From the NCBI GenBank assembly GCA_015065295.1, contig SVQN01000023.1, forward strand, positions 1-37,080: a stretch of 37,080 nt of DNA, in the 5' to 3' direction. The stretch is from Oscillospiraceae bacterium. GTDB lineage: Bacteria > Bacillota > Clostridia > Oscillospirales > CAG-272. Shown here piece by piece: positions 24,679 through 33,675 of the stretch (position 1 is its first letter; each line of letters opens with the position of its first letter). The notes under the pieces are model-generated. The model was not told the DNA's origin. It made no database searches and was given only the letters and a program-made list of their open reading frames with translations. Position numbers and translations under genes: made by a program.

Positions 24679-27516
24679 TTATACCCCCAGCTTCTCCCGC
24701 AGATACTGCCCGGTATACGATTGTTCACACATCGCCACCTCTTCCGGCGTACCTTTGGCGATGACCGTGCCGCCGCCGTCTCCGCCTTCGGGACCCATGT
24801 CGATGATATAGTCCGCCGACTTAATCACGTCGAGGTTGTGTTCGATCACGACGACCGTATTGCCGGAATCCACGAGCTGCTGCAGAATGGCGATCAGACG
24901 TTCCGCGTCTGCGGAGTGAAGCCCTGTCGTCGGTTCGTCGAGGATGTAGATCGTCTTGCCCGTCGAACGTCTGGACAGCTCCGTTGCCAGCTTCACGCGC
25001 TGTGCTTCGCCGCCGGAGAGGGTTGTCGAGGACTGCCCGATTTTGACATAGCCCAGCCCCACATCGCACAGGCACTGGAGCCGGCTGCCGATTTTCGGGA
25101 TGTCGCGGAAGAATTCCACCCCTTCCGCCGCTGTCATATCCAGAACGTCCGCGATGCTCTTTTCCTTGTACTTGACTTCGAGCGTTTCGCGGTTGTACCG
25201 TCTGCCGTGGCATACATCGCAGGTGACATAGACGTCCGGCAGGAAGTGCATCTCGATTTTTTTCACACCGTCGCCCTCGCAGGCTTCGCACCGTCCGCCT
25301 TTGACGTTGAACGAGAACCGCCCGCTCTTGTAGCCGCGCATTTTTGCTCCCGGCGTTTTCGCGTACAGATCGCGGATGTCGTTGAACAATCCCGTATACG
25401 TTGCCGGATTCGAGCGCGGCGTGCGTCCGATCGGCGACTGGTCAATGGCGATGATCTTGTCGAGATGCTCAATGCCGCGAATCTCGTCGTGCTCGCCGGG
25501 ATAAGTGACCGCGCGCATGAGCTGACGTGCCAGCGTCCGGTACAGAACCGCGTTGACAAGGGACGATTTGCCCGAACCGGACACCCCCGTCACGCAGACG
25601 AAACAGCCGAGCGGGAAATCGACCGTGATATTTTTCAGATTGTTCTCCCGCGCACCGACTACGGTCAGGAATTTTCCGTTTCCGGCACGGCGGGTTTCGG
25701 GGACGTTGATTTTCCGTCTGCCGGAGAGAAAATCCCCCGTGACGGAGGCCGTACACGCCGCAACTTCCGCAGGTGTGCCGCACGCGACGACTTCGCCGCC
25801 GTGAACGCCTGCCGCAGGTCCGATGTCGATGATATAGTCCGCCGCCATCATGGTTTCTTCGTCGTGTTCGACCACGAGGACGGAGTTGCCGAGGTCGCGC
25901 AGATGCTTCAGGGTGTTGATGAGTTTGCTGTTGTCGCGCTGATGCAGACCGATCGAGGGTTCGTCGAGGATGTACAGTACCCCTGCAAGGGATGAACCGA
26001 TCTGCGTCGCCAGACGGATGCGCTGTGCCTCGCCGCCGGACAGGGTCGCGGATTTGCGTGCAAGCGTGAGATAATCCAGCCCCACGCTCACGAGGAATCC
26101 GAGACGGCTTTTCAGTTCCTTGATGATCTCGCGCGCAATCTGCATTTCCGTTTCGGTGAATTGCAGGGATTTTGTGAATTCGAGCGATTCCGCCACGGAC
26201 ATCGTGCAGAATTCGTGGATGTTTTTTCCGCCGACCGTAACGCCGAGCGCATCCTTTTTCAGCTTCGCGCCGCCGCAGTCCGGGCAGACCGTGTCGGTCA
26301 GGAACTGTTCGTAATATTCGGGGTCCCACGCGTTCGGATCGCTGCGGTTCCCGATCATGCGGAGAATACCGTCGAACTGGATGGTCTGCGTCTGGCTCCG
26401 TTCGCCGAACCAGCGGGTGACGGTCAGCTTTTCCGGCAGACCGTGCAGAAGAACGTCGTACGCCGCTTTCGGGAAATCTTTGATCGGCATATCGAGGTTC
26501 GCGCCGTATTTTTCGATGGCGGCGGCGATCAGCGGACCGTTCCAGCTGTCTTCAGTCAACGTTTTGAACCCGTTGACGACGATCGCGCCGTCGCGCAGAC
26601 TAAGACTTTTGTCGAGAATGATTTTTTCCGGATCGACCGCGCGGAGAACACCCAGACCCGTACAGGTCGGACACGCGCCGAACGGATTGTTGAACGAGAA
26701 CATCCGGGGTTCCAGTTCGCCGAAGCTGATGCCGTGTTCGGGGCAGGCGTAGTTGGTCGAAAATTCGGTTTCTTCCGGCTTTTCGTCGGAATTCCGCCCC
26801 GCCACCGTCGCGCAGATGACCGAGCCTTCGGATTCGCGGAGCGCACATTCCACGGAATCGGTAAGCCGTCCGCGGATGCCGTCCTTCATGACGAGACGGT
26901 CGATGACCAGTTCAATGGAGTGGCGGAGGTTTTTGTCCAGTTCGATCTCTTCGGACAGGTCGTAGACGATGCCGTCGATGCGGACGCGGACGTAGCCGTT
27001 TTTCTTCGCATCGGCGAGGACTTTTTCGTGACGCCCCTTCTTGCCGCGTACAACGGGGGAGAGAATCATGAACCGCGTTCCTTCCGGAAACACCATGATT
27101 TTGTCAATAATCACGTCGGTCGAGGTCTGACGGATCTCACGTCCGCAAACCGGACAGTGCGGCACGCCGAGACGGGCGTACAGCAAACGGAGGTAGTCGT
27201 AAATTTCCGTAACGGTGCCGACGGTGGAACGCGGGTTCTTGGAGGTCGTCTTCTGGTCGATGGAAATAGCGGGGGAAAGTCCTTCGATGGAGTCCACGTC
27301 GGGCTTGTCGAGCTGCCCGAGGAACATCCGGGCATAGGAGGACAGCGATTCAACGAACCGGCGGTGTCCTTCGGAATAAATGGTATCAAACGCAAGCGAG
27401 GATTTCCCCGAACCGGACAGACCGGTCAGGACAACGAGCTTGTCGCGGGGAACATCCACGTCAATATTTTTCAGGTTGTTCATCCGTGCGCCGCGCACAG
27501 AAATAAAGTCAGGCAT
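24679..27516 (-). CDS. uvrA: UvrABC system protein A (excinuclease ABC subunit A)
   Basis: This 945-residue protein is the damage-recognition ATPase of nucleotide excision repair. Both ABC modules are intact: Walker [20 protein letters not shown] and [12 protein letters not shown], signatures [17 protein letters not shown] and [16 protein letters not shown], and Walker [11 protein letters not shown] and [10 protein letters not shown]. The C-terminal zinc-finger module (CEACEGDG ... CDVCHG) is present, as are the other cysteine pairs (CPVCGRE, CPTC, CPDCGG). AAAGGAGG stands 5 nt before the ATG. uvrB and uvrC are not adjacent. It is downstream of the TerB/ATPase/helicase module on the same strand, with an M-family repeat ending just before its ribosome binding site, so read-through from the module is possible. 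Confidence 0.97.
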
Positions 27517-27528
27517 AAAACCTCCTTT

Positions 27529-27642
27529 TGACTAATGACTAAGGGTGAATGGTGAATGGCTATCCATAATTGAATGTCAGCGGACAGACGTATGATTCCG
27601 CCTTAGTCATTCACCATTCGTCTTTAGCCCTTAGCCCTTTCC
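27529..27642. repeat. ITR-type repeat (M family), copy B, overlapping the helicase stop codon
   Basis: About 112 bp. The left arm has GACTAATGACTAAGGGTGAA, then TGGTGAATGGCT; the right arm has TTAGTCATTCACCATTCG and TTTAGCCCTTAGCC. The core contains AATGTCAGCGGACAGACG. The right arm supplies the last codons (AKG) and stop of the helicase gene. The left arm ends directly before the uvrA ribosome binding site. Confidence 0.87.
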
Positions 27643-29825
27643 ATGATTTCGTCCGCGCGGAGCTTGTCTTCGCGGTAGGCTTTGCGGAGAAGCTCCGACG
27701 GAATGTATTCGTCGTATTTGTCAAAGACCGGGGCTTCGCTCGGGCTGATGAGGGAATCGAGGTCGATGCCGTCTTCCGCGATTTTCTGCATGATTTCGCG
27801 CATCAGGTCGTCGCCGCGTCCTCCTTCGAGCTTGAACGTCATATAGTAGCAGCCTTCGAATTCCATGCCGGTCAGCTTGAACCGTCCGGCGTTGCGGACA
27901 AGATAGCGTCGGAGTGTGCGGAAGCTGCGCGTTCCGAGCCATGGGAACAGTACCCATGTGTAACCGCCGAGCGGGAGGATGCAGTTGGTTGTCACGCCGG
28001 TATTGCGGGCAATGGCGCGCGCCACGCGGAGACGTTTCAGTGCGCCTTCACGGAGGTACGGGTATTCCGTGTCCTCGCGCAGTACCTGAAGCATCCGCTC
28101 CAGAATCCGCGTGTGGATTTCGCCGTAGTCGCCCGGCCAGCTGATTTCCATTTTGCCGCTGACCCGCTTGACGTAGATCAGGTGGCGCGGCAGGTCGAGT
28201 TCTTCGACTTCCCAGACCCGTCCGGCAAGGGCAAACCGGTCGCCGACCGGCGGGGGAGTCGTGATGACGCCGATTTCGTCCGATTCGCACCGGACGGTGT
28301 AGTCTTCGGAATCCTTGAACACGGCGTAGAATTTGAAGGAATTGGTCAGTTTTTCGCCGCGCAGTCCGACGATCAGTTCCCGTTCGTCCGTCATTTCCAG
28401 CCAGTCGTTGTTAATCATCGACAGAAGAAGCGTTTTGTAGTCCCGTTCCTCAATATGCGCGAACGGCGGCAGGGACAGAACCCTTGCGGCAAGCTCCTTC
28501 GCCGTGATTGCACCGCTTGACGCAACAATGGACAGCGTCTGCTGGAAGAGCAGGCTGTACGGACAGTTCCGGATGAACGGCGGTTCGATGAAGCGTTCCT
28601 CGATGTACAGCTGCACGATGGCGATCGCCTGCAGGAGATTCCATGGGATAAGCTGGGGCAGGGGCGTGTTCGGGAGAGCGGTTTCCTCGCGGAAGACCAT
28701 CATCATTTCCGGAGGATCGCCGCGCCGTCCGCTTCGTCCGAGACGCTGGAGGAACGACGACACCGTATTCGGCGAACCCTGCTGGATGACCCGTTCGAGC
28801 CGTCCGATGTCGATCCCAAGTTCGAGCGTGACCGTCGCGCAGGCAACCGCTTTCATTTCGTCGTTCTTCATCTTCATTTCGGCTTCCTCGCGGATGCTCG
28901 CCGACAGGAAACCGTGGTGGATCAGGAATACGTCCGGTTCATGCCGGTATTCCGCGATTTCGCGCAGGGTCGCGCAGATATATTCCGTCTCCTCGCGGGA
29001 GTTGGAGAACACGATGGCCTTTTTGTCCTTCGTGGATTCGTAGATATATTCGTAACCGGGGTCCATCGAAATTTCTTCTTTCCGCTGATTTCCTTCCGGC
29101 GTGGGAAGATCGGCGACATCCGGCCCGTTGATGTAAAAATGCTCCATCCCGAGCCGCCAGCGGATTTTCGCCGGAGGAATGTCCGGAATCACCGTATCGC
29201 GGCCGCTTCCCGCACCGAGCCACTGTGCCGCACGGGACATATCGCCGAGCGTTGCGGACAGCCCGATCCGTCGCGGGGATGCACCCGTTTTTGCGCGCAG
29301 ACGTGCAAGCTGACAGATGATCTGGTTCCCGCGGTCGCATCCGGTGAGGGTGTGGATTTCGTCGATGACAACATACCGCAGGTCTCCGAACAGACGGATG
29401 AGGTCGGACGAACGGGTCATCAGCATACATTCGAGCGATTCCGGCGTGATCTGGAGAATGCCGCGCGGGTCTTTGAGTGCCTTTGTCTTGTGCGACTGCG
29501 CGACGTCGCCGTGCCAGTGATAGACGGGAATTCCCGTTTCGTCGCAAAGCTCGGAAATGCGCCCGAACTGGTCGTTGATGAGGGATTTCAGGGGTGCAAT
29601 GTAAATCGCGCCGATGGAGGTCGGCATATCGTCATAGAATTCGGAGAGAATCGGAAAAAACGCCGCTTCCGTTTTGCCGGATGCCGTCTGGGACGGAAGC
29701 AGCAGGTTGGTATCGGAACCGAAAATAACTTCCGCCGCCGAAACCTGTACGGGAGAAAGTGATTCCCACCCGTGAGTATAGATAAATTCCCGGATAAACG
29801 GGGAGTAGCTGTCAAATACGCTCAT
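27624..29825 (-). CDS. Lhr-like superfamily II DNA helicase (BrxHI-like)
   Basis: The 733-residue helicase contains both RecA-like lobes. Motif I is PSQTASGKTEAAFF (about residue 40), Ia APLKSLINDQ, Ic ITPESLECML, II VVIDEIHTL, III GLSATLGD, IV VFSNSREETEY, V TVTLELGIDIG and VI QRLGRSGRRGDP. After these come about 330 residues with a winged-helix/Lhr-type C-terminal region (DRFALAGRVWEVEEL). It is closest in type to helicases of the Lhr/BrxHI group, which occur beside BrxD ATPases in type 2 BREX phage-defence loci. TTGGAG lies 5 nt before the ATG. The ATPase and TerB-domain genes are upstream on the same strand, and M-family repeats flank this gene on both sides. The last three residues and the stop lie in repeat copy B, so the original C-terminus may have been altered. 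Confidence 0.9.
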   Translation of the reverse strand: MSVFDSYSPFIREFIYTHGWESLSPVQVSAAEVIFGSDTNLLLPSQTASGKTEAAFFPILSEFYDDMPTSIGAIYIAPLKSLINDQFGRISELCDETGIPVYHWHGDVAQSHKTKALKDPRGILQITPESLECMLMTRSSDLIRLFGDLRYVVIDEIHTLTGCDRGNQIICQLARLRAKTGASPRRIGLSATLGDMSRAAQWLGAGSGRDTVIPDIPPAKIRWRLGMEHFYINGPDVADLPTPEGNQRKEEISMDPGYEYIYESTKDKKAIVFSNSREETEYICATLREIAEYRHEPDVFLIHHGFLSASIREEAEMKMKNDEMKAVACATVTLELGIDIGRLERVIQQGSPNTVSSFLQRLGRSGRRGDPPEMMMVFREETALPNTPLPQLIPWNLLQAIAIVQLYIEERFIEPPFIRNCPYSLLFQQTLSIVASSGAITAKELAARVLSLPPFAHIEERDYKTLLLSMINNDWLEMTDERELIVGLRGEKLTNSFKFYAVFKDSEDYTVRCESDEIGVITTPPPVGDRFALAGRVWEVEELDLPRHLIYVKRVSGKMEISWPGDYGEIHTRILERMLQVLREDTEYPYLREGALKRLRVARAIARNTGVTTNCILPLGGYTWVLFPWLGTRSFRTLRRYLVRNAGRFKLTGMEFEGCYYMTFKLEGGRGDDLMREIMQKIAEDGIDLDSLISPSEAPVFDKYDEYIPSELLRKAYREDKLRADEIMERAKG

Positions 29826-29840
29826 AGAAACTCCAAAAAA

Positions 29841-29947
29841 GGCTAATGACTAAGGGTGAATGGTGAAGGACTGAACCGAACTGTATGTCAGCCGACAGAA
29901 CGGAAATTTTGGAAAGTCATTCACCATTAGTTCTTAGCTATTAGCCT
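29841..29947. repeat. ITR-type repeat (M family), copy C
   Basis: About 107 bp. The left arm reads GGCTAATGACTAAGGGTGAA and the right arm TCATTCACCATTAG, TTCTTAGCTATTAGCC. The core contains CTGTATGTCAGCCGACAGAA. It sits between the ATPase and helicase genes inside the presumed operon; the helicase ribosome binding site lies just outside the left arm. Confidence 0.87.
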
Positions 29948-29973
29948 TATTTTACACTCATGTGTTCGCTTAG

Positions 29974-29993
29974 TGTTTACGAAATTGTAAACA
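29974..29993 (-). repeat. Small hairpin after the ATPase gene
   Basis: TGTTTAC / GTAAACA around GAAATT, within 10-30 nt of the ATPase stop codon. No T tract follows. It may be an attenuator or an mRNA-stabilising hairpin between the ATPase and helicase genes. Confidence 0.5.
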
Positions 29994-30001
29994 TTGTTCG
30001 T

Positions 30002-31399
30002 TTAAAATTCGATATCGTCGAGGGTGATTTTCGGACGTGCGTCGGCAGGCTTTGCTTCCGGAATCGCGGTGACGGAGGGAGCATTGTCTGCGTCGGCATC
30101 GTCTACGTTCGAGGATACGGTGGAACGCTGTACCGCGCCGGCAATATCGGCGAAGGACTTGTTCGTATTGGTGTACAGCAGGTCGAGCAGGGTCACGAAA
30201 TCGCGGATGATCTCACGCGGGGTAATCATCGTGTCCGCGCCGGTACGGTCGAGGGAAGTCATGAGGAAGGCTTTCATGTCGTCTTCCGTGACGCGGACAT
30301 CCCATTTGTGGTACTCGCCGTGGAGCGCGGCCAGACGGATGACGAGTGCGTACAGTTCGCTGTCCGACAGGCGTTTCAGACGGATGACCGGCTGCATGAG
30401 ACTTTTCAGTTCCCCACCGCCGTAACGTCCGTCCGCCAGACGGCTCCGCAGGGCTTCGTAGCTGAACAGGCCGCGTCGGCTGTCCTCGAGGAACTGCGGG
30501 GTTCCGCCGAAGACGATCATCAGACCGGGCGCGCGTCCCTGCATGGTGTCGTTGAACATGGCGAGGATTTTTTCGTAGTTGTTTTCGCGCGAAATACGGT
30601 TCGGGATTTTGTAGAGGTTGACGCATTCGTCAATGTAGATGCACAGACCGCTGTAGCCCGCGAGACGTGCAAACGACGTGAACAGCTTCAGGTAATCGTA
30701 CCAGTTGTCGTCGCTGATGATGGACAGCGAACGGATGCCGACCGCCTGACGTGCTTCGGTGCGGGTGTTGTATTCGCCGCGCAGCCATTTCAGGCACGCG
30801 GACTGCTTCATATCGTCGTCGGTCTGCCATGCGTTGTAGTATTCGCGCAGGACGGTCGCAAAGTCGAAGCCGCCCACGTCCGATTCGAGTTCGCGCAGAT
30901 TTTTCATGATGCGCTTGCCGAATTCCGCGTGATACGCTTCCGTGTCCGCGGTGATTCCTTCGTCCACCAGCTCTTCGCCGACGGTTGTGAACCATTTCCC
31001 GAGAATCACGGGAAGTGCGCTGCCGTCCGGAGAGGATTTGCAGGCGATGTTTTTCATCAGTTCGCGGTAGGTCGCAAGTCCGCTTCCGTTCGCTCCTGAG
31101 AGCTTCCTCTCAGGGGAAAGGTCAGCGTCGGCGGTGATGAAGCCCCGGTCAAGGGCATAGCCGCGCGAGAGCTGGATCAGGAAACTTTTCCCCGAACCGT
31201 AGCGGCCGATAATGAATTTGGTCGCCCCTTCGCCGTCCGCAACCCGGTCAAGCGAGGTGACGAGGGATTCGATTTCGTCGTTCCGTCCGATGGCGATGTA
31301 CGGCGCGCCCGCACGCGGAACAACGCCGGCCGACAGGGACGAGAGCAGGGTGCCGAGAATGCGGCGGGGGACTTTTGCGGTTGTATTCGGTTTGTTCAT
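30002..31399 (-). CDS. BrxD-like P-loop ATPase (DUF2791 type)
   Basis: The 465-residue AAA/STAND-like ATPase has Walker A GRYGSGKSF at about residue 65, Walker B LCIYIDECVNL at about 220, and a sensor-like segment LMIVFGGTPQFLEDSRRGLFSYEALRSRL. The early segment PRAGAPYIAIGRNDEIESL matches the N-terminus of BrxD-type ATPases (ATP-binding proteins formerly DUF2791). BrxD is part of type 2 BREX. The start is the ATG at 31399, which overlaps the TGA of the TerB-domain gene by four bases (ATGA), so translation is coupled; a longer frame to 31411 is less likely. A hairpin and M-family copy C follow its stop. It probably works with the Lhr-like helicase as a regulated DNA-loading or sensing unit; this is inferred from the families. 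Confidence 0.88.
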   Translation of the reverse strand: MNKPNTTAKVPRRILGTLLSSLSAGVVPRAGAPYIAIGRNDEIESLVTSLDRVADGEGATKFIIGRYGSGKSFLIQLSRGYALDRGFITADADLSPERKLSGANGSGLATYRELMKNIACKSSPDGSALPVILGKWFTTVGEELVDEGITADTEAYHAEFGKRIMKNLRELESDVGGFDFATVLREYYNAWQTDDDMKQSACLKWLRGEYNTRTEARQAVGIRSLSIISDDNWYDYLKLFTSFARLAGYSGLCIYIDECVNLYKIPNRISRENNYEKILAMFNDTMQGRAPGLMIVFGGTPQFLEDSRRGLFSYEALRSRLADGRYGGGELKSLMQPVIRLKRLSDSELYALVIRLAALHGEYHKWDVRVTEDDMKAFLMTSLDRTGADTMITPREIIRDFVTLLDLLYTNTNKSFADIAGAVQRSTVSSNVDDADADNAPSVTAIPEAKPADARPKITLDDIEF

Positions 31400-33588
31400 T
31401 CTTCCATCCAAGTTTCGATGTCCTCCCTGTAATCTTCAATAATTGTATAACTTTTTCCGTTTTCCTCAAGGACGATGTCACCGAGGATGTCGAGGAATTT
31501 CGTGTTGATCCGGTCGGCGAGAACGCCGTCATAAATCTGATGATCGCGGCAGAAATCGTGGAAATGTCCGTTCAGCGCGGCGGACAGTGCCTCACGGAGA
31601 AGATCATCTTCGGCGGAAGCATCCGCTTTTTCCGGAACTGCGGAGTTTTCCACAGGATGTTCCGCCGGATTTTCCGGTGCCGGAATTTCCGGAGCCGGAA
31701 GTTCTTCTGCTTTTTCAACAGGAGCCGGTGCAGGAATCGCTTCGCTGAGGTCGGGCGCATCTTCGCCGGATTCCGTGAGTTCGGGGATTCCTTCAAATTC
31801 GCCCTGCGTGAGAAGCGTCGTATTCTGCCATGACCGGCGTTCGATCTCGGCAGCCGCGCCGAAGTCAAATCCGGAGTCCTCCGATTCGTAATTTTTGAGG
31901 TAATCCTCCGGCATATACTGATCTTCCTTCGGTTTGACGGTCTTCTGCGGAAGCATCGGGGCAAAATACGCGTCCAGAAGCACGCTGTCTTCCGGAAGAA
32001 TGCCGTCCACGCCGAGCTTGGACTTGATGCCGAGTGTGAGACGGAGTTTGTTTTCCGCATATTTCACGATGGCCGTGACTGCGCGGCGGGTTTCCGCCGA
32101 ACGGGTGAACGAGCAGAATTCGATGTTCATCCGCCGCTTGACGCTGATCGAAACGATCGCACCGCAGTAACTGTCACGGGACATTTTGTAGGTTTTATCG
32201 CGGGCAAAAACGCCGTTTCCGTTGGCAATGGAGTGTTTGATGACGGAAACGACCGCGAGGGGCAGATGATGTTCGTAGGCATCGCGGTTGGCGGTGTAAT
32301 ACCGGCTGCGGCGGTAGTCGTAGTCGGACGAGACTTCGATGAATGTTTTGGCGAGGGTGAGGTAATCTTCATCCGCCGCCTTTGCCGGATTGAAGTCGAG
32401 GTAAAATTCCTTGAACTGCGCCTTCGGAACGATTTCCGGCAGGAGGGACTTGAGCTTCTCCGGCATCGGACAGGCATGGATCATGCAGTAATCGGGCAGC
32501 CATTCGCAGAGATAGCCGTCGAGACGAGGTTCCGTCCGGCGGTAATGGAGCCAGATGCCCGCGAGCTGTGCCGCGCCGTATTCCGGCGGGATCAATTCGG
32601 GAAGGTTCAGAATTTCGTAAATATAAAGCTGGATATACGACGGATCGCAGTCCGGATACCGTCCGTGTCGGATATTTTCGCGTACCCAGCGGTAGAAATC
32701 GAGCTGCGCGCGGCTCATGTGCGAATACTGCGGGACATACGAAAAATAGGATACCCGCGGGTAGTCGGAGGTATACGGAACCGTGGACTGCGCCGAGTGG
32801 CTTTTTTCCGCGTTTTCCAGAAAGCGTTCGTAAAAATCAATGTCGGACGTCCAGCTCCGCACCTCGATTTCCCGGAGGAGAAGCCCGTCCGGCGTGTATC
32901 TGGCGAGGACTTCATCTCCGGTATGACGTTTCCGGCGTTCGGTCTGTTCCGCGTTTTTCTGCGGATTGAAGCTGCCGTGCCGCTTGTAGGAACCGTAGCC
33001 GTGGGAACCGGTCGGATAACGCGGCGGCGCGTCGTGGACAATGGTCTGGCGGCCGTCGGATGTGGTGGCGGTCGTGGTCTTCGGGCGTTCCGGGATGGTC
33101 ATGCCGTTCATTGCAGAAACCGTGGAGACCGTCTCATCGGGGGTACGTTCCGGAAGATCGTCGAACAGGTCGGAGAGAATGTCCGTATTGTCGGCGGGAC
33201 GGTAGTTGAGACGGGAGTGACTGCCGCGCGTGACAGGAGCTTCCGCAGGACGTGCATCCGGAGAGATAGCTTCCGGACCGGTAACCTCCCGGTCAAGGTC
33301 GACGGTGTTGTCCACGGCGGTCAGTTCGACGGGAGAATCGGAGAAGTCCGGCTTTTTATACACCCGCGGTTTCGGGCGGCCGAGGTTCCAGAAATCGTCG
33401 TCCCTGTCACTGGCGGCAGGCGGAGTGTCGTGAACGATCTTCCGACCGTCTGTAAAGAGGGAATCCACCTCAAAGGAAGCAGTTCCGTAATTTTCGGGGA
33501 AGGGATCTCCGGTAATGTTTTCCACAAGTTTTCGGATATTCTTTTTCAGATTCGCAAGTTCTTCGGGGGATTTTCGTTCGTTTTCCAT
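31396..33588 (-). CDS. TerB_N / TerB_C domain protein, first gene of the module
   Basis: The 730-residue protein has a charged, low-complexity N-terminal third (about residues 1-215, probably disordered). A TerB_N domain follows at about 230-440: YSHMSRAQLDFYRWVRENIRHGRYPDCDPSYIQLYIYEILNLPEL is its hallmark. A middle region at about 450-570 is unrecognised. A Pro/Glu-rich linker (APAPVEKAEELPAPEIPAPEN) precedes a TerB_C domain at about 665-730 (INTKFLDILGDIVLEE, YTIIEDYREDIETWMEE). TerB-linked proteins are associated with tellurite-resistance-type stress systems and predicted DNA-processing gene clusters. It starts ATGGAAAACG with AGGA 5 nt upstream and is driven by a full-consensus promoter. 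It overlaps the ATPase gene by four bases. Direct function unknown; perhaps a sensor or scaffold for the ATPase and helicase. Confidence 0.87.
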   Translation of the reverse strand: MENERKSPEELANLKKNIRKLVENITGDPFPENYGTASFEVDSLFTDGRKIVHDTPPAASDRDDDFWNLGRPKPRVYKKPDFSDSPVELTAVDNTVDLDREVTGPEAISPDARPAEAPVTRGSHSRLNYRPADNTDILSDLFDDLPERTPDETVSTVSAMNGMTIPERPKTTTATTSDGRQTIVHDAPPRYPTGSHGYGSYKRHGSFNPQKNAEQTERRKRHTGDEVLARYTPDGLLLREIEVRSWTSDIDFYERFLENAEKSHSAQSTVPYTSDYPRVSYFSYVPQYSHMSRAQLDFYRWVRENIRHGRYPDCDPSYIQLYIYEILNLPELIPPEYGAAQLAGIWLHYRRTEPRLDGYLCEWLPDYCMIHACPMPEKLKSLLPEIVPKAQFKEFYLDFNPAKAADEDYLTLAKTFIEVSSDYDYRRSRYYTANRDAYEHHLPLAVVSVIKHSIANGNGVFARDKTYKMSRDSYCGAIVSISVKRRMNIEFCSFTRSAETRRAVTAIVKYAENKLRLTLGIKSKLGVDGILPEDSVLLDAYFAPMLPQKTVKPKEDQYMPEDYLKNYESEDSGFDFGAAAEIERRSWQNTTLLTQGEFEGIPELTESGEDAPDLSEAIPAPAPVEKAEELPAPEIPAPENPAEHPVENSAVPEKADASAEDDLLREALSAALNGHFHDFCRDHQIYDGVLADRINTKFLDILGDIVLEENGKSYTIIEDYREDIETWMEE

Positions 33589-33646
33589 GGAATCCTACTT
33601 TCTCAGTCTGCTGCAAACAGGAAATTGCATTCGTTCGTAATAAATA

Positions 33647-33675
33647 ATTATAGCATGATTTTTATGCAGTGTCAA
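33647..33675 (-). promoter_or_regulatory. Full-consensus sigma-A promoter of the TerB/ATPase/helicase module
   Basis: The minus strand reads TTGACA-N17-TATAAT, preceded by TG one base before the -10 (extended). All twelve hexamer bases match. The leader is about 50 nt. It is divergent from the promoter of the second solute-binding gene. Confidence 0.92.

Follow-up and report, generated by a model that had tools for sequence, protein, structure and literature searches.

A largely vertically inherited Shango (SngABC) locus in an Oscillospiraceae lineage

Does a compact cluster of genes for a TerB-domain protein, a BrxD-like ATPase and a Lhr/BrxHI-like helicase represent a mobile defence system, a fragment of a larger one, or a DNA-processing machine of the host itself? 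The question is raised by a 37,080-nucleotide stretch of Oscillospiraceae DNA (the window), for which the original prediction proposed a three-gene candidate defence or DNA-processing module. As claimed, the ORF list places three genes on the minus strand at 33588–31396, 31399–30002 and 29825–27624, and the ATGA overlap between the TerB_N/TerB_C gene and the ATPase gene is borne out. The first gene, sngA (31396..33588), encodes a TerB_N and TerB_C protein of 730 aa; sngB (30002..31399) encodes a BrxC/BrxD-type P-loop ATPase of 465 aa counted from its ATG, a longer version of the ORF beginning at TTG 31411; and sngC (27624..29825) encodes a 733-aa SF2 DEAD/H helicase of the BrxHI/Lhr/YprA kind. 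A sigma-70 (SigA-type) promoter, TTGACA-17-TATAAT with a TG extension before the −10 element, lies 5′ of sngA on the same strand (33647..33675) and agrees with the consensus at 12 of 12 positions; a scan of the region returned five promoter-like sites with at least nine matches versus 2.9 expected. Both hexamers are unchanged in the window and in four aligned upstream regions of relatives, despite diverged flanks. The trio had been predicted to start from one promoter; the promoter stands, and a single sngABC transcript, which would have to cross a 176-bp sngB–sngC gap containing a repetitive palindrome, is plausible only.

That imperfect palindrome (29835..29952, no strand assigned) and a second one (27532..27640, likewise), which covers the last part of sngC and reaches into the 107-bp sngC–uvrA gap, belong to one genome-wide repeat family and are incidental to the system. 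The family is REP/MITE-like, with 51 genome sites for a 27-mer at up to 3 mismatches versus 0 for the reversed control. Directly 3′ of sngC, on the same minus strand and outside Shango, lies uvrA (24679..27516). The remaining recognised genes among the 20 window ORFs scanned are ordinary (an RNB-domain RNase, a Mur ligase, M42 peptidases, YitT, an aspartate aminotransferase, a radical SAM protein and an AraC regulator).

To identify the trio, we compared its proteins with Pfam and with defence-system models. Pfam recognised TerB_N and TerB_C in the first protein, BrxC_BrxD (PF10923, 493 bits) in the second, and DEAD and Helicase_C in the third, with a WH_Lhr match under its cut-off; it recognised no nuclease domain in any of the three. 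The PADLOC models for Shango matched all three over most of their profiles: SngA with 149.3 bits (E 7.2e-44, profile positions 81–527 of 528), SngB with 529.8 bits (E 1.5e-159, positions 4–426 of 439) and SngC with 800.9 bits (E 3.6e-241, positions 5–714 of 720). The gene order A-B-C is the published Shango order, a TerB-type protein followed by an ATPase and a DEAD/DEAH helicase, and the same order occurs on one plasmid each from Klebsiella, Salmonella and Paenibacillus, the Sng models fitting the Klebsiella and Paenibacillus copies. Thus, judged by model scores and by the gene order shared with plasmids, the trio belongs to an already known kind of system, Shango (SngABC). Shango was described in the P. 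aeruginosa hotspot cDHS1 as a system of TerB-like protein, ATPase and DEAD/DEAH helicase that changed the efficiency of plating (EOP) 10-100-fold for many, not all, phages (Johnson et al. 2023, PMC10250203). The same paper cites Millman et al. 2022 and, for E. coli Shango, cites the inhibition of two phages. The original prediction's statement that this compact form has no known experimental function is consequently not supported, given the phage restriction demonstrated in P. aeruginosa (PMC10250203), while its proposal of a compact, non-BREX module of defence type is supported by the Shango model scores. A 2026 review places Shango among systems of unknown mechanism (PMC12926258).

Type 2 BREX contains a homologous ATPase and helicase, the BrxD–BrxHI pair, and the predicted matches to TerB_N, TerB_C, BrxC_BrxD and BrxHI models were all obtained. 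However, the Sng models outscored those for BrxD and BrxHI. The BrxD model reached 172 bits on SngB (E 5.9e-51), 358 bits behind the SngB model, and the BrxHI model reached 398 bits on SngC, 403 bits behind the SngC model; SngB also missed the cut-off of the BrxD equivalog NF033438 (170.7 versus 350 bits). PglZ (PF08665, E 1e-10) was found in 2 of 196 genomes of the family and was not detected in the window's own genome (71% complete), and a Pfam scan of 23 window ORFs returned no PglX, PglW or BrxC/PglY. In place of PglZ, the window has a TerB_N/TerB_C partner. On the model scores and the missing PglZ, we rejected a type 2 BREX remnant.

In the window SngA, TerB_N spans residues 279–384 and TerB_C residues 626–725, preceded by a long non-matching N-terminus; each domain is present in 56 of 62 aligned SngA homologues. 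A central TerB domain (PF05099) is given as a Shango feature in PMC10952713. It was not detected in the window SngA at E values up to 1, and TerB is absent from the best 25 of 43 families matched among the 62 homologues. The Klebsiella plasmid SngA carries PF05099, which was not detected in the Paenibacillus SngA, a protein scoring 360 bits with the SngA model; by these models, PF05099 is therefore not universal in Shango. An AlphaFold model of residues 225–730 (mean pLDDT 87.8) displays a body rich in alpha helix, a linker of low confidence and, at the end, a small helical tail bearing a beta hairpin, and in this model the TerB_C tail looks winged-helix-like. A fold search of the PDB and of viral libraries gave nothing below E 0.001. 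Its best plausible matches were LysR-type winged-helix domains (probability ≤0.93, E ~1), which are only a hint that the tail may be a winged helix. Another weak match (E 3.4, probability 0.60) was BFVD A0A8S5LZC6, a viral TerB-C domain fragment from Siphoviridae sp. ctCsv15, indicating that phage-encoded TerB_C pieces may exist. In the one Nostoc SngA scanned (L083, 8543–9889), TerB_C is kept and a coiled coil takes the place of TerB_N; this differing architecture adjoins the same kind of SngB.

The two enzymes retain their motifs. Among 30 family members examined, the Walker A pattern of SngB is present in all 30 and a simple Walker B pattern in 28, and helicase motif patterns I, II, III and VI of SngC are present in 30 of 30. 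Compared by sequence with PDB entries, SngC matches B. subtilis YprA best, with the helicase core alone aligning, and then two chains named 'ATP-dependent DNA helicase' that we take to be Lhr. SngC missed the full-length repair-type DEXH models TIGR04121 (210.3 of 850 bits) and TIGR03817 (128.7 of 874.1 bits), presumably the Lhr-like and YprA-like families. The YprA/MrfA and Lhr repair helicases share with SngC the SF2 helicase core and the weak Lhr-type winged-helix match, and we know of no SngA or SngB partner for them. In a published helicase tree, SngC falls with BrxHI, DruE and DpdJ into a clade of potential defence helicases (PMC12278908), a placement that favours retained defence, and in a preprint the YprA family has two branches, one of defence and one of DNA repair (PMC12458937).

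How widely is the system carried? All 25 genomes sampled from the genus, including the window's own, matched PF10923, one of them twice. Across the family, the SngB model was matched in 138 of 196 genomes and 55 of 71 genera, and all 138 also passed E 1e-60; at least 7 of the 138 copies are of a foreign type. When only good genomes (≥90% complete, ≤5% contaminated) are counted, 87 of 116 carry SngB and 29 lack it. Thus, SngB is fixed in the genus sample and is common, not universal, in the family. At wider scales, SngB was found in 49 of 197 genomes of the order (family members being re-used and two weak matches included) and, at E 1e-60, in 16 of 299 genomes across the phylum including the window's (15 of 295 good ones). 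As controls, the type I restriction domain HSDR_N was matched in 43 of the 196 family genomes (32 of 71 genera), and PglZ in the 2 mentioned above. The closest named relatives are metagenome-assembled genomes (MAGs) labelled Clostridia, Oscillospiraceae or Ruminococcus, from ruminant guts where the source is titled. One genome, SIG670, has two sngABC-uvrA loci on different contigs (L062 and L064, SngB 70% and 68% identical to the window), reflecting a duplication or a mixed bin.

To follow the descent of the system, we compared SngB and SngC with rpoB. The tree sample comprised 26 of 30 chosen SngB genomes, leaving out two without an rpoB match, one whose rpoB lacked the frame-picking motif and one whose SngC was truncated in the retrieved sequence. 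Distances were correlated between rpoB and SngB (Mantel r = 0.63), rpoB and SngC (0.66) and SngB and SngC (0.82), values that none of 2000 permutations reached. All nine genera with at least two members are monophyletic in the rpoB, SngB and SngC trees, and 13 of 23 splits are common to rpoB and SngB, versus at most 3 in 1000 label shuffles. No splits at support 0.9 conflict between rpoB and SngB; three do between rpoB and SngC, a sign of some transfer or of error in the trees. Mapped onto an rpoB tree of 57 selected genomes, native SngB requires 8 changes (against a mean of 16.6 and a minimum of 11 in 1000 shuffles) and is present on both sides of the midpoint root; 17 genomes without SngB were picked deliberately for this tree and 3 carry the foreign type, and 17/57 is accordingly not a frequency. 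In a 159-sequence SngB tree, from which short or interrupted sequences were dropped and in which cyanobacteria were thinned, 101 native copies and L070 form one clade (support 0.94) with no foreign-type copy inside. Three genomes (G030, G032 and G161, with loci L137, L132 and L131) carry foreign-type Shango with SngB 46–47% identical to the window, and their sisters in the sampled rpoB tree lack SngB. Shango here is thus largely vertical in descent, the SngB and SngC trees following rpoB; the simplest account is that it was present in the family ancestor, followed by several clade losses and a few later gains of mobile types. A literature search yielded, among the matches listed, no title or abstract start about vertically inherited or split Shango.

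The components of the system are not always linked. The SngC model (E 1e-150) was matched in 128 of 196 family genomes: 126 carry both SngB and SngC, 12 SngB alone, 2 SngC alone and 56 neither (Fisher p 2e-34, with no correction for kinship). Of the 12 SngB-only genomes, nine are less than 90% complete; the other three, G063 (96%), G104 and G124 (90% each), suggest that SngC may be dispensable or fragmentary there, and G104 has a partial SngC piece. The two SngC-only genomes, G044 and G149, belong to genus g21 and have a SngC-like helicase (~750 bits); two other g21 genomes have both genes. In the 126 genomes with both, SngB and SngC lie within 300 bp in 62, a recurrence indicating that the trio arrangement is more than chance, within 6 kb in a further 12, and on different contigs in 52. 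Because some of these 52 cases must be assembly breaks, the SngC stretches of 15 were fetched. SngC was truly unlinked in 13 of 13 genomes where both loci could be inspected: no SngC lies in the 6–12 kb 3′ of SngB, SngA is within the SngB stretch, and neither SngA nor SngB occurs around SngC (flanks of ~7 kb on both sides in 12 genomes; 1.6 kb on one side in G121). Inspected by eye, the neighbours of split SngC are shared within genera, being aminoacyl-tRNA synthetase-like genes in one genus and a UvrD/PcrA-like gene in another. In Nostoc and related cyanobacteria selected for SngB, 18 of 18 genomes have a SngC of 820–858 bits, and 15 of the 18 have no SngC within ~10 kb of SngB.

The adjacency of uvrA, which the original prediction allowed might be chance, is not a one-off: uvrA lies within 2.5 kb 3′ of the system on the same strand in 16 of 99 loci with room for it. 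Thirteen of these belong to the window's closest relatives (SngB 67–94% identical to the window), two to a sister genus, and the last is L070. This lineage-specific distribution argues against a general functional link, and uvrA as a general functional partner was rejected, 83 of the 99 loci having no nearby same-strand uvrA. The adjacency is old local synteny and not family-wide. A defence-model scan of 10 window ORFs matched UvrA alone, to mad3 and mad8, and these matches look UvrA- or ABC-like. The UvrA match to PADLOC mad3 reached 2e-104; this model resembles UvrA, and false defence calls are possible if it is used alone. Among 117 neighbour ORFs of related loci (E 1e-15), there were four matches to mad2, three to mad3 and one each to two PDC models, with none to restriction-modification (R-M) or CRISPR models. 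In close relatives, the picture named beforehand as telling against a defence module, a fixed core position without defence neighbours, thus holds in part, but elsewhere Shango is widespread and experimentally validated; the window accordingly represents a core-genome lineage of a genuine defence system.

Elsewhere Shango is mobile: a SngB query matches 692 plasmid records, 542 of them typed conjugative, and a SngC query at E 1e-100 matches 23. The full trio was inspected on three plasmids, one conjugative and two non-mobilizable. No SngB match at E 1e-5 was found in 50,697 phage records. Shango in P. aeruginosa is a variable cassette of a defence hotspot (PMC10250203) and known Shango also resides on enterobacterial plasmids, whereas the window's lineage is largely vertical and can be split.

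The Sng genes are under strong purifying selection. Across five close pairs, dN/dS was 0.020–0.039 for SngC, 0.032–0.068 for UvrA, 0.055–0.075 for SngB and 0.135–0.213 for SngA; SngC was below UvrA in four pairs and slightly above it in L061–L067. Median dN over 66 pairs follows the same order (SngC 0.128, UvrA 0.148, SngB 0.188 and SngA 0.534). Inside SngA, the values are close to 0.1 for the folded core and close to 0.5 for the linker. SngC is thus about as constrained as UvrA, and nothing suggests decay in the Sng genes.

Our reading is of a domesticated, vertically inherited Shango: in this lineage, the system has probably become part of the inherited chromosome, with a role in defence or in guarding the genome. 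In the mechanism we envisage, SngA would act as an adaptor or sensor through its flexible linker and winged-helix-like TerB_C tail, and, perhaps together with SngB, would recognise DNA that is abnormal or foreign, or intermediates of replication. The BrxD-like AAA+/ORC-type ATPase SngB would then load and activate SngC, as BrxD has been suggested to load or activate BrxHI (PMC12839542). SngC, a SF2 Lhr/BrxHI-like DNA translocase, would translocate on and remodel the target DNA, such that phage or plasmid replication stalls. We infer the sequence of these steps, the DNA acted upon, the winged-helix tail and a continued defence role of the Clostridia version.

The spread, dispersal and UvrA-level constraint of the genes favour a role on the host genome, and these properties, together with the single copy, are as compatible with a housekeeping DNA enzyme as with defence. 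It is possible, if on balance doubtful, that the trio is a housekeeping complex for DNA repair or replication-fork processing, akin to the Lhr/YprA(MrfA)-type repair helicases, and that antiphage Shango is its mobile derivative or relative. In favour of such a complex are the family spread with largely vertical descent, the SngC dN/dS below that of UvrA in four of five close pairs, and genes that, dispersed into housekeeping-looking surroundings (by eye), are still co-retained; the conserved consensus promoter, the adjoining uvrA in close relatives, YprA as the best PDB sequence match of SngC, and the DNA-repair branch that the YprA family has besides its defence branch (PMC12458937) point the same way. 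However, 29 of 116 good family genomes lack SngB, with clade-wise losses on the rpoB tree, and three sampled genomes without a native copy have foreign-type ones; both features resemble those of a dispensable defence function. In addition, relatives of the trio are antiphage, and SngC has been placed in the potential defence clade (PMC12278908).

Two further explanations fare much worse. A recently acquired mobile defence cassette that came to lie beside uvrA by chance would be in keeping with the mobility of Shango elsewhere, as seen in the plasmid records matched by SngB and the three plasmids inspected for the trio, but it is very improbable: uvrA adjoins the trio in every one of the 13 close-relative loci with room for it, the trees are congruent, and the subset of window ORFs scanned contained no transposase or other defence gene. 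We give equally little credence to a type 2 BREX surviving as a remnant or in compact form and made up of BrxD and BrxHI, for which the 493-bit PF10923 and 398-bit BrxHI matches would speak, given the higher SngB and SngC scores (530 and 801 bits), the missed BrxD equivalog cut-off and the rarity of PglZ. Still more tentatively than the housekeeping complex, one may picture Shango as a chromosomal genome-guarding machine at its root, with a trans-acting SngAB plus SngC complex kept on the chromosome in this family of gut Clostridia and in Nostoc-type cyanobacteria despite distant coding loci, in the Clostridia at a constraint like that of UvrA, and the antiphage cassettes of plasmids and hotspots as mobile derivatives of this maintenance role.

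For the domesticated Shango that we favour, the gene set is ordinary and it is the mode of inheritance that is unusual. An inherited, partly split yet co-retained Shango offers a natural experiment on which of its parts work together, and the same lineage a test for a host-genome role of the system. It would also carry a warning that a defence label need not imply a mobile, recently acquired system.
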